Assembly: GCF_002113125.1 (NCBI RefSeq)
Contig: NZ_NEJP01000010.1
Coordinates: forward strand, 124,001-188,000
DNA length: 64,000 bases
Direction: 5' to 3'
Source: Pseudomonas sp. B20(2017)
GTDB lineage: Bacteria; Pseudomonadota; Gammaproteobacteria; Pseudomonadales; Pseudomonadaceae
In this document: positions 20,506 to 22,794 of the stretch, one piece after another
Layout of the letters: the number at the start of each line of letters is the position of its first letter
Position numbering within the stretch: position 1 is the first letter of the stretch
Notes under the pieces: model-generated
Told to the model about the DNA's origin: nothing
The model's input: the letters and a program-made list of their open reading frames with translations, nothing else
Database searches by the model: none
Program-made: the position numbers and the translations under genes

Positions 20506-21093
20506 ATGAGTCTGATTGTGTCGATGGCGGCGTTTGCCCTGGCCGCGTCCATTACCCCGGGGCCGGTGAATATCGTGGCGTTGAGTTCGGGAGCGCAGTT
20601 TGGCTTTCGCGCCAGCCAGCGACATGTGGCCGGGGCGACGCTGGGGTTTGTGCTTTTGTTGGTGTTGATGGGGCTGGGGCTTCACGAAGTGTTGAAACTT
20701 TGGCCGTCGCTGACCCGTGTGGTGCAACTGGCCGGGGTGGCGTTTCTGCTGTTCATGGCATGGAAACTGGCTACCGATGACGGGCGGTTGAATACGGGAG
20801 AATCGGGCAGGGCGCCGTCGATGCTCTATGGCGCGGTGATGCAATGGCTCAATCCCAAGGCCTGGCTGGCCTGCGTGGCGGGAATGGGCGCGTTTGTCGC
20901 CGATGGTGAGGCGCGGCTGGTGTGGCAGTTTGCGGCGGTGTATCTGGTGATCTGTTATCTGTCGGTCGGGTGTTGGGTGTATGCCGGGACGTTCCTGCGC
21001 GGCTATCTCGGCAACCCGGCAGGGATGCGCTTGTTCAATAGGGCGATGGCGTTGTTGCTGGCGGTGAGTGCGGGGTATTTGTTGTTGCCGTAA
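20506..21093 (+). CDS. LysE/RhtB-family exporter
   Basis: A 195-residue inner-membrane protein with the LysE fold. The N-terminal ASITPGPVNIVALSSGAQFGFRAS contains the conserved TPGP-N motif. The middle has VAFLLFMAWKLATDDGR, and MLYGAVMQWLNPKAWLACVAGMG holds the NPKAW motif. Six membrane segments are predicted from the hydrophobic pattern. It is divergent from the PfpI-like gene and is followed by the structured leader of the DUF6124 gene. Substrate unknown. Confidence 0.92.
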   Translation: MSLIVSMAAFALAASITPGPVNIVALSSGAQFGFRASQRHVAGATLGFVLLLVLMGLGLHEVLKLWPSLTRVVQLAGVAFLLFMAWKLATDDGRLNTGESGRAPSMLYGAVMQWLNPKAWLACVAGMGAFVADGEARLVWQFAAVYLVICYLSVGCWVYAGTFLRGYLGNPAGMRLFNRAMALLLAVSAGYLLLP

Positions 21094-21114
21094 GCGTGGA
21101 GGGCCTTGGGTTTA

Positions 21115-21447
21115 AAGGTGTTTAAGGATGCGTCCGGCAAGCCACAACACCTTGCGCCATTGCCTACGCATCCGCCAGAATCCGCCGGCTTGTGGGCCTT
21201 GGGGCCGGGTTCTATCGTGTGTCGGTCGCTGACGAATCAGCGACCGGACTTGACCGTCCGACTCAATCAAGGTGCCAGCGTGCCGTTTTGTTCAGCTCTC
21301 AGGGTTGTTCGTGTAATGGCGGTTGTGCGCGGGATACCTTCGGGTATGCCGGGTTCCTTGATTCCCGGTCGGTCAACCCGCGTACAGCTGCCACCTGTTT
21401 CGATTGACCGCGAACGGTTGCAGCTCCGTCCATCAAGGAGCTTCACC
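21115..21447 (+). promoter_or_regulatory. dense structured non-coding leader upstream of the DUF6124 gene
   Basis: This 333-base stretch has no convincing gene but an unusual density of inverted repeats. AAGGTGTT (21115-21122) pairs with AACACCTT (21146-21153), and GGATGCGT (21126-21133) with ACGCATCC (21166-21173); the two pairs cross like a pseudoknot. CGGTCGCTGA (21223-21232) pairs with TCAGCGACCG (21237-21246) around a CGAA loop. ATACC-TTCG-GGTAT (21334-21347) is a hairpin with the extra-stable cUUCGg loop. CGGGTT (21350-21355) can pair with AACCCG (21375-21380). AGCTGCCACC (21386-21395) pairs with GGTTGCAGCT (21416-21425) just before the ribosome site AAGGAG (21435-21440). This suggests a cis-regulatory RNA or small RNA. 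Confidence 0.6.
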
Positions 21448-21819
21448 ATGATCAAACCAACGCCAAACCCACCCGAATCCGACCCGACCTCGCCTTACGA
21501 AACCCTCGACTCCAAGAAATTCCACGAAGCCGCCGACCGCGCCCTCGATCACTACCTCAGTCCGCTGCTTCCCAGAAAACCGCTGCTCAAACCCAACGCC
21601 CGTTACCTCATCGCCCCCGGTATCGACAGCGAAGAACTGCTGGCCGACGCCTGCGAAACCCTGACCTCGGCCAAAACCATGGCCACCGACTTCGCCGGGT
21701 TGGTGGACGGCTCGCATCGGCATGTGCTGTTGGGGATTGCGCAACTGATCATGCTGGGGGAGCTGGCGGTGAATCGGGTGCTGGATAACCTGGAGTTGAA
21801 GGCCGAGGCGCCTCTGTAA
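21448..21819 (+). CDS. DUF6124 (DUF3077-like) small protein
   Basis: A 123-residue cytosolic protein of a family found mainly in pseudomonads, often as several paralogues per genome. The N-terminus is Pro/Ser-rich and disordered (MIKPTPNPPESDPTSPYETLDSKKFHEA). The C-terminal half is helical (DSEELLADACETLTSAKTMATDFAGLVDGSHRHVLLGIAQLIMLGELAVNRVL). The start is fixed by AAGGAG seven bases before the ATG, so the upstream open frame is leader, not protein. No biochemical function is known to me. The strongly structured leader implies post-transcriptional control. Confidence 0.85.
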   Translation: MIKPTPNPPESDPTSPYETLDSKKFHEAADRALDHYLSPLLPRKPLLKPNARYLIAPGIDSEELLADACETLTSAKTMATDFAGLVDGSHRHVLLGIAQLIMLGELAVNRVLDNLELKAEAPL

Positions 21820-21844
21820 GCTGATCGCCCACGTCGAACCGTCC

Positions 21845-21922
21845 GCGTGGGAATGCCTCAAGGGACGCTCCGCGTTCCAGCTCTGGAAGGGACGCGGAGC
21901 GTCCCGGGCTGCATTCCCACGC
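21845..21922. repeat. long nested palindromic repeat between convergent genes
   Basis: GCGTGGGAATGC (21845-21856) is mirrored by GCATTCCCACGC (21911-21922). Inside it, GGGACGCTCCGCGT (21862-21875) is mirrored by ACGCGGAGCGTCCC (ending near 21905), around a TTCCAGCTCTGGAA core. The result is one nested hairpin of about 78 bases. I recognise it as an intergenic repeat common in fluorescens-group genomes and distinct from the GTGGGAGC REP family. It may act as a bidirectional terminator here. Confidence 0.85.
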
Positions 21923-21960
21923 AGAGCGTGGGAACGATCCAACGCGGACCGTTTTTTCGT

Positions 21961-22794
21961 TTAACCCCGATACTGCCCCGGCGTCGCCGCCAGATGCTGC
22001 TTGAACGCCCGTTGAAAATGCGCCTGGTCAGCAAACCCGGCCTCCAGCGCCACATCCGCAATCAACTGCCCGCGCCGCAAACATTCACGGGCAAACTGAA
22101 TGCGCTGGTTGACCAAAAACGCGTGGGGCGTCATGCCGAAGTGTTGTTTGAAGGCGCGGATCAGGTACGACGGTGACAGCTCGGCCGCAGCGCAGATGTC
22201 ATCAAGGCTGAGCAACTCGGTGCAGTGCTGGCGGATGAAGTCGGCGGCGCGTTCGAGTTTGAAATTCGGCTCGCGCAAGGGTTGTTCGATGGGATTCAGG
22301 CGCAGTTGCAGGTCGCTGAAGAACTCCACCGCCGCGCTCTGTTTGCGCAGCACGTCCTGCTGATCGTCGATCAATACCGCGTACAACGCATTCAAATCGC
22401 GAAACAGGTGGGCGTCATTCAAATGAGTATCGGAAAACCGCCGAAACTCAAGCTCCGCACTGAAGCCTAACTGATGCTGCAGATCGATCAGCCACGGCGT
22501 TTCCACATACAGCATCAGATACGACCACGGCTGATCATCGATGGGGTTGCACGCATGGACATCCCCCGGGTTCATCAGCACCACGGTGCCGGCCGCGACT
22601 TCGAACGAAGACTGCTCATGCACATAAGTGCTGCGTCCGGCGGTGATCGCGCCGATGGAGAAATGCGCGTGGGAGTGCCGTGAATAGCAGACCTCACGCC
22701 CGTCGACGATGGCCCGGGCCTCGATGAAGGGCAGGGCGTCGTCGCGCCAGAAGCGTGGGGCTTGTTCGGGGTTTTTGGCGGCAGCGTGTTTCAT
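21961..22794 (-). CDS. AraC-family transcriptional regulator with cupin sensor
   Basis: A 277-residue regulator. An N-terminal AraC-type cupin (ARAIVDGREVCYSRHSHAHFSIGAITAGRSTYVH, with GTVVLMNPGDVHACNP closing the barrel) senses a ligand. The C-terminal domain has two helix-turn-helix units (LSLDDICAAAELSPSYLIRAFKQHFGMTPHAFL and IADVALEAGFADQAHFQRAFKQHLAATPGQYR). Regulators of this subtype often sit beside LysE-type exporters, as here across the DUF6124 gene, but the target is not proven. The start MKHAAAKN is preferred because a longer frame would run into the neighbouring gene. Confidence 0.9.
   Translation of the reverse strand: MKHAAAKNPEQAPRFWRDDALPFIEARAIVDGREVCYSRHSHAHFSIGAITAGRSTYVHEQSSFEVAAGTVVLMNPGDVHACNPIDDQPWSYLMLYVETPWLIDLQHQLGFSAELEFRRFSDTHLNDAHLFRDLNALYAVLIDDQQDVLRKQSAAVEFFSDLQLRLNPIEQPLREPNFKLERAADFIRQHCTELLSLDDICAAAELSPSYLIRAFKQHFGMTPHAFLVNQRIQFARECLRRGQLIADVALEAGFADQAHFQRAFKQHLAATPGQYRG

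Follow-up and report, generated by a model that had tools for sequence, protein, structure and literature searches.

In phages P1 and P7, the antisense RNA C4 folds into a three-way junction with an RNase P-type 5' end and carries two pairing sequences, a' and b', with targets upstream and at the ribosome site of the next gene; b' partly occludes that ribosome site, a' confers specificity, and 4 nt of difference restrict C4 cross-reaction (PMC5320573, in the part available). The same source cites Weinberg et al. 2010 for the prediction of C4 in Pseudomonadales; it reports that C4-like RNAs are expressed in A. baumannii, that, with two exceptions, coverage within longer transcripts goes up from a GGW motif onward, and that these RNAs are, to its authors' knowledge, the first large C4-like group in one genome (PMC5320573). 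Two other RNAs are likewise derived from the leader of the transcript that they act upon, namely IsrK of the Salmonella prophage Gifsy-1, which activates translation, and the CI RNA of phage P4, which works by transcription termination and pairs both upstream (seqA) and downstream (seqC) (PMC4825925, in the part available).

The locus described here lies in a 64,000-nucleotide stretch of Pseudomonas DNA (the window), between a LysE-type and an AraC-type gene. It resembles the P1/P7 system in its three-way junction, its a' and b' loops, the position of its targets and its RNase P-type 5' end. While the phage RNA acts on an anti-repressor operon, the presumed target here is a chromosomal small-protein gene of the DUF6124 family, for which no phage context was found, and more than 30 copies with different loops occur in one genome. 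The Group 1 C4-like RNAs of A. baumannii are similar in having many chromosomal copies, variable target loops and an RNase P-like processing pattern; the available text names no target genes for them (PMC5320573), whereas most of the copies here have a matched adjacent target, and their mutual specificity was measured. We consider it very probable that this is a chromosomal cassette in which a C4 antisense RNA silences its own DUF6124 message. An earlier note, made from the sequence alone, had proposed either a cis-acting RNA controlling translation or a small RNA. Both proposals were about right, as the RNA belongs to a family of small antisense RNAs and is encoded within the leader of the very mRNA that it matches; the note's idea of an RNA unit of no known kind has to be given up, since the family is Rfam C4. 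The features of the unit are as follows.

21142 to 21197, + strand: conserved upstream DNA block, consensus CtACaacnCCTTGCGcCaTTGCCTACgncTACGCCAGAATCCGCCGGCTTGTGCGc, common to 20 of 34 units
21190 to 21218, + strand: possible promoter, TTGTGG-N17-TATCGT, from sequence and spacing
21212 to 21264, + strand: c4-a1b1 element (Rfam), containing the CGAA-loop hairpin 21223-21246
21250 to 21256, + strand: a1, TTGACCG, complement of a'
21265 to 21272, + strand: b1, AATCAAGG, complement of b'
21312 to 21398, + strand: C4 antisense RNA with P1/P2/P3 three-way junction (Rfam, fold, covariation)
21318 to 21395, + strand: mature C4 of 78 nt, predicted from the way RNase P processes the phage RNA
21354 to 21363, + strand: P3 loop (fold), carrying b', CCTTGATT, at 21356-21363
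21370 to 21376, + strand: a', CGGTCAA, unpaired junction linker (fold)
21404 to 21410, + strand: a2, TTGACCG, within a hairpin loop closed by 4 bp (21399-21402 / 21411-21414)
21432 to 21439, + strand: b2, ATCAAGGA, overlapping the Shine-Dalgarno sequence AGGAG (21436-21440)
21448 to 21819, + strand: DUF6124 gene (PF19619), 123 aa, presumed target (Pfam 1.1e-23)

An Rfam search, a check that the earlier note had suggested, matched C4 (RF01695) at 21312-21398 on the + strand with 83.6 bits (gathering threshold 45) and its target element c4-a1b1 (RF03163) at 21212-21264 with 48.5 bits (gathering threshold 46.7), and nothing else in the whole window scored above threshold. The isrK family (RF01394) is not among these matches, which show only the best of overlapping hits of the same clan. 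The region 21212-21450 folds far better than shuffled sequences (z = -4.46, 0 of 200 shuffles as good), as does the C4 part by itself (z = -4.98, 0 of 200). Its main feature, absent from the inverted repeats listed earlier, is the 17-bp P1 stem (21317-21333 with 21377-21393), which forms the C4 three-way junction; P2 is capped by a UUCG loop. Several of the listed elements are indeed present, including the 10-bp stem with a CGAA loop (21223-21232 / 21237-21246), the cUUCGg hairpin (21334-21347) and the competing partners CGGGTT (21206 and 21350) and AACCCG (21375), but the "9-of-10 bp stem" placed before the ribosome site was not identified as such, and two small hairpins are predicted between C4 and the start codon instead. 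A weak terminator-like hairpin with a T-run was also observed between b1 and C4 (21271-21284), which recalls the IsrK terminator.

The genome to which the window belongs contains 34 C4 matches, 33 of them above the Rfam threshold, and all structure and pairing counts were made on 33 copies, with the low-scoring L023b omitted. Standard pairs occupy 95.3% of 922 cells of the C4 structure, and 17 of its 28 pairs change on both sides, so that the compensatory changes sought by the earlier note are found; none of 500 shuffles equaled this, and slid structures reached only 31 to 43%. The ends of the RNA are nearly invariant among the 33 copies (U-1 in 32, G1 in 33, G2 in 33, C72 in 33, A73 in 30, C74 in 33 and C75 in 32), a pattern of U-1/G1 G2...C72 A73 C74 C75 that we take to resemble the tRNA contacts used by RNase P. 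By analogy with the phage RNA, mature C4 is probably cut out by RNase P at 21318. By the features testable here, namely score, junction and a'/b' complementarity, the RNA of the window is a member of C4.

The DNA upstream of the RNA behaves differently. With up to three mismatches, a pattern taken from the conserved block matches the genome at 20 places and its reversed control at none; all 20 lie within about 160 bases upstream of C4 copies, and the block shared by 20 units ends in CTTGTG. It is probably promoter or operator DNA and may bind a common regulator; a sigma-70 consensus scan of 20950-22050 gave no promoter. The earlier note had read a pseudoknot into two crossing octamer pairings, AAGGTGTT (21115-21122) with AACACCTT (21146-21153) and GGATGCGT (21126-21133) with ACGCATCC (21166-21173). 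Both pairings exist in the window, in or just before the block, but 21106-21211 folds no better than its shuffles (z = -0.03, 101 of 200), and the pairings are complete in just 2 and 1 of the 20 block-sharing units, the window being counted in both, and thus form no conserved pseudoknot. The region looks like a DNA element upstream of the possible promoter.

In the window, a' is exactly complementary to both a1 and a2, and b2 is complementary to b' and the base preceding it, so that the downstream sites offer 7 (a') and 8 (b') contiguous Watson-Crick pairs, with the b2 duplex at -16 to -9. Pairing was measured as the longest contiguous Watson-Crick match, a count adopted because free duplex energy over whole leaders, which was also tried, proved too permissive and was dropped. 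By duplex energy, the own pair came first by row in 19 of 33 units for the downstream sites, in 11 for the upstream sites and in 29 for the sum of all four, and by column in 15, 10 and 16. Own pairs were compared with foreign ones by re-dealing the real leaders among the real C4 RNAs, a permutation that therefore retains any Shine-Dalgarno bias. Over the 33 units, mean pairing of own against foreign combinations was 7.36 against 4.81 at a1, 6.18 against 4.20 at b1, 7.12 against 3.97 at a2 and 6.70 against 4.35 at b2, with z values of 12.1 to 14.4 and 0 of 10,000 permutations reaching the observed value at any of the four sites; with G-U pairs counted, z was 8.0 to 12.8, again with 0 of 10,000. 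Where fixed windows were used for this genome (G000), L015 was dropped, its minimum-energy fold having no junction.

The result was reproduced in a second Pseudomonas genome, G009 (28 units, from the best 30 of 38 C4 matches), and in six other genomes (27 pooled units, drawn from 30 of 155 matches, the five best per genome), with 0 of 10,000 permutations at every site; units with a junction-less minimum-energy fold were left aside (L044 and L059 in G009; L109, L116 and L129 in the six genomes). At a1 in G009, the first, fixed window had given no significant result (z = 1.7, 537 of 10,000); significance came only with the whole 115-base upstream stretch. Matching is not equally strong in all units. 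In 30 of 33 units the duplex of b' with b2 reaches into the region -18 to -3 relative to the start codon (42-base search stretch); in L006, L015 and L021 the best b' duplex falls within the coding region; b2 pairing is weak, with 3 to 5 contiguous Watson-Crick pairs, in L008, L014, L015, L027, L032 and L033, and b1 reaches at least six pairs in just 19 of 32 units.

These features suggest the following course of events. A single transcript from about 21220 would carry a1b1, C4 and the DUF6124 message, and C4 would fold as a three-way junction and, as in the phages, be released by RNase P at 21318. The linker a' would then pair with a2 and the loop b' with b2; because b2 overlaps the Shine-Dalgarno sequence of DUF6124, this pairing would block ribosome entry and repress translation of the RNA's own mRNA in the manner of P1 and P7, possibly followed by transcription termination. 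The upstream a1b1 element, which together with a2b2 recalls seqA and seqC of P4 CI (PMC4825925, in the part available), offers the same pairing and would probably serve as a competing site or set C4 activity.

The opposite effect, in which C4 or the a1b1 RNA activates its message much as the short IsrK refolds its own long transcript, is improbable. IsrK does act on its own message in trans, which results in translation of anrP (PMC4825925), and a C4 of Burkholderia cenocepacia lies in one transcription unit with isrK (PMC4603805), as far as the available parts of these papers go. The Shine-Dalgarno sequence of the window's gene sits in a local hairpin, and by a crude count this sequence is mostly paired in the local folds of 20 of 33 units; opening such a hairpin could therefore activate translation. 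The position of the b' duplex argues otherwise: at the Shine-Dalgarno region it would block ribosomes, unlike the action of IsrK or CI. Relief of C4 by a1b1 could still appear as activation.

Silencing of an own, adjacent message is consistent with the arrangement of the other copies. The genome's 30 DUF6124 and 3 DUF3077 matches correspond to 32 genes, as one match is common to both, and 28 of the 34 C4 copies precede such a gene (26 DUF6124 and 2 DUF3077) on the same strand, 87 to 242 bases before the matched domain. Conversely, 28 of the 32 genes have their own C4; the four that lack one are the second gene of a tandem pair and three solitary genes, next to which neither Rfam nor model R1 found a C4. 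Two of the latter, the DUF6124 genes of L035 and L036, lie in stretches that also carry tmRNA and PrrF small RNA genes. The DUF6124 copy of L016 (G000:C1:128966-129051) has ATA where its relatives start and may be inactive, judging from its reading frame. Six C4 copies are followed by neither DUF6124 nor DUF3077: L023b (below threshold), L024, L017, L028, L032 and L033. The last four precede small open frames with no Pfam match above cut-off, and the small proteins of L028 and L032 look alike by eye.

Most units appear to be tuned to themselves. As cut out (the loop with a few stem bases), b' differs among all 33 copies, the loop core being identical in L021 and L033, and a' with its flanks occurs in 26 forms. 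It is b' that varies most, with a mean pairwise identity of 0.39 against 0.78 and 0.75 for the two P1 strands. At least six pairs at both a2 and b2 are formed by 27 of 33 own combinations and by 5 of 1,056 foreign ones; at a looser threshold of six and five pairs the counts are 31 of 33 and 35 of 1,056. When the b sets were re-dealt, 13.3 foreign passes were expected at the first threshold against the 5 observed (P = 0.008), and the P values for such insulation at four thresholds were 0.008, 0.047, 0.064 and 0.046, uncorrected. Even L002 and L008, with near-identical proteins (nonsynonymous difference 0.004 over 120 codons), differ in b'. Most C4 RNAs match their own leader and few others, and each small-protein gene would accordingly be silenced mainly by its own RNA.

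The same data bear on whether the leader could be a stand-alone cis element, such as a riboswitch, a thermosensor or a protein-binding leader, with no antisense action. The dense structure directly before the start codon would suit such an element, which we nevertheless regard as extremely unlikely given the Rfam C4 match and the variability of b', the least constant part of the RNA; moreover, a' and b' change together with the four sites, and a ligand-binding leader predicts no such thing.

The DUF6124 protein of the window (start ATG at 21448) scores 83.3 bits against a Pfam cut-off of 27. Close DUF6124 paralogues of the genome are under purifying selection, with dN/dS of 0.01 to 0.29 across 28 pairs picked within groups of close paralogues. 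In the predicted structure (mean pLDDT 75), confident helices at 61-83 and 89-114 form a helical hairpin. The model had no match in the PDB below E 0.001, a Rop variant among its structural matches being not significant, and a sequence search of the PDB up to E 1 found no relative; two proteins run against PADLOC and four against NCBIfam matched nothing. A proline at positions 6, 8 and 9 was found in 26 of 34 units of this genome, 21 of 30 of G009 and 9 of 30 of the six other genomes, in counts that favor the motif by choosing the best-fitting among possible starts, and the motif is seen again in G009 proteins that do not match DUF6124. Such proline motifs can slow ribosomes. In type I toxin-antitoxin systems, an antisense RNA antitoxin silences an adjacent small-protein gene, with many paralogues that encode short membrane peptides. 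The present units are similar in that a small-protein gene is apparently silenced by an adjoining RNA and exists in many paralogous copies, but the protein is a 123-residue helical hairpin by its model, and the RNA is encoded within the leader, on the gene's own strand. No mention of DUF6124 was found in the literature searched, and DUF3077 is mentioned in the available part of PMC9630843 as the site of a resequencing mutation, with no function given.

One copy has an arrangement closer to that of the phages. L024 (G000:C5:36947-37036) is a C4 before a Bro-N protein (Pfam 3.6e-11; phage anti-repressor families in PHROGs, 6.6e-11), and C4 also precedes Bro-N proteins at L104, L118 and L124 in two further Pseudomonas genomes (Pfam 3.6e-11 to 6.7e-9, including L024). 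By their gene content these loci resemble the phage C4/anti-repressor arrangement. The L024 Bro-N protein has no relative among viral contigs and matches 298 phage records at low identity. Such loci, together with the role of P1/P7 C4 as an immunity factor (PMC5320573, in the part available), would fit a view in which the cassettes are kept mainly as immunity devices, with C4 silencing matching genes carried in by phages or elements and the small protein being secondary. For a DUF3077 protein of the genome, PHROGs gave two families of unknown function (7.5e-9 and 7.2e-8), in keeping with that view, but tblastn gave no phage record. DUF6124 matches one phage record, at the record edge, no plasmid, and five viral contigs in which the match is never more than about 1.2 kb from a contig end; its carriage by phages or plasmids was rejected. 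Considering also the purifying selection on DUF6124, a mainly immune function is unlikely, and silencing of the cassette's own message remains our preferred reading.

C4 was found in 92 of 99 Pseudomonas genomes, in 0 to at least 39 copies per genome, with eight genomes at 39 or more; as 39 candidates were scored per genome, these counts are lower bounds. Across the 99 genomes, these at-least counts of C4 correlate with the number of DUF6124 and DUF3077 genes (Spearman rho 0.94). The seven genomes without C4 have neither DUF6124 nor DUF3077, as do 13 of the 92 with C4, and in five genomes C4 exceeds the DUF6124 and DUF3077 genes by at least 10. One of the five is G009, where many C4 copies precede other small proteins that begin with MKK(L/I)VPDPP. 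G009 also contains three-copy C4 clusters (C21:16214-16512, C58:321065-321620 and C17:111255-112197), and L046, L062 and L064, fetched from these clusters, lack an open frame in the interval scanned for starts downstream of C4. Among 185 genomes sampled from the class, with stricter filters and 22 candidates per genome, C4 occurs in six besides the window's own, in one to three copies each. The best 80 of 419 DUF6124 relatives are all from Pseudomonas, the closest named one being P. koreensis B1M1-15 (98% protein identity). The earlier note's impression that similar sequence precedes paralogues elsewhere is borne out in these 80 named records: a C4 model from the window's genome matched upstream of 78 of the genes, the two exceptions being L142, with no C4 in 130 upstream bases, and L206, with only 43 upstream bases to scan.

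Units also differ between relatives. Eight relatives (L069 to L076) keep the lysE-araC neighbors without the unit. In L077 the gene order is also kept, with a wider spacing in which C4 is absent, and the stretch examined in L068 contains no match to araC. Gain by insertion at the lysE-araC site is the simpler reading, and loss in the relatives instead is possible. With the order of its neighbors kept unit-less in eight relatives, the unit does not appear as a phage- or prophage-borne module. A REP-like repeat follows the DUF6124 gene (21842-21939), and direct and/or inverted copies of it lie beside other units or DUF6124 genes (L003, L013, L020, L026, L027, L030 and L034).

A mobile or selfish cassette, in which C4 exerts multicopy inhibition and its specificities act like plasmid compatibility groups, would be compatible with self-silencing and seems to us doubtful, though clearly less so than an immune role. 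The duplicate pair L005/L009 (91.5% identity over 710 columns, with edges on both sides), the eight syntenic sites that lack the unit, the REP-like repeats adjoining several units and the range of copy numbers in the genus are all consistent with mobility. Set against this, no transposase was seen, the helical-hairpin model of the protein has no significant structural match, and the absence at syntenic sites could reflect loss; furthermore, the alike stretch is not of fixed size, since the similarity of L013 and L020 extends over 1,185 columns and goes further upstream.

The C4 RNA family and multicopy C4-like RNAs in A. baumannii are already known (PMC5320573, in the part available). No description of multicopy C4 in Pseudomonas was found in the literature on C4 antisense RNA and Pseudomonas, including the available parts of PMC2864571 and PMC12189769. 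New relative to the literature found are the coupling to DUF6124 and DUF3077, the number of copies in Pseudomonas and the mutual specificity measured here.

It is tempting, if only tentatively and with slightly more confidence than for a selfish cassette, to assume that these are dispersed self-silencing cassettes with mutually blind antisense RNAs, akin to plasmid compatibility groups written in RNA. Copies would spread while keeping nearly the same protein, and a copy would survive only where joint change in b' and its two targets lets the newcomer escape the resident C4 RNAs; the P6-x-P8-P9 motif would add a layer of ribosome pausing. In any case, a textbook phage immunity RNA is here extended to a chromosomal gene family present in most of the Pseudomonas genomes sampled, and the DUF6124 and DUF3077 genes, for which no function was found in the literature searched, gain a candidate regulator. 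About thirty natural antisense-target pairs built on a common scaffold are available in one genome, as a ready data set on the specificity and insulation of RNA pairs.
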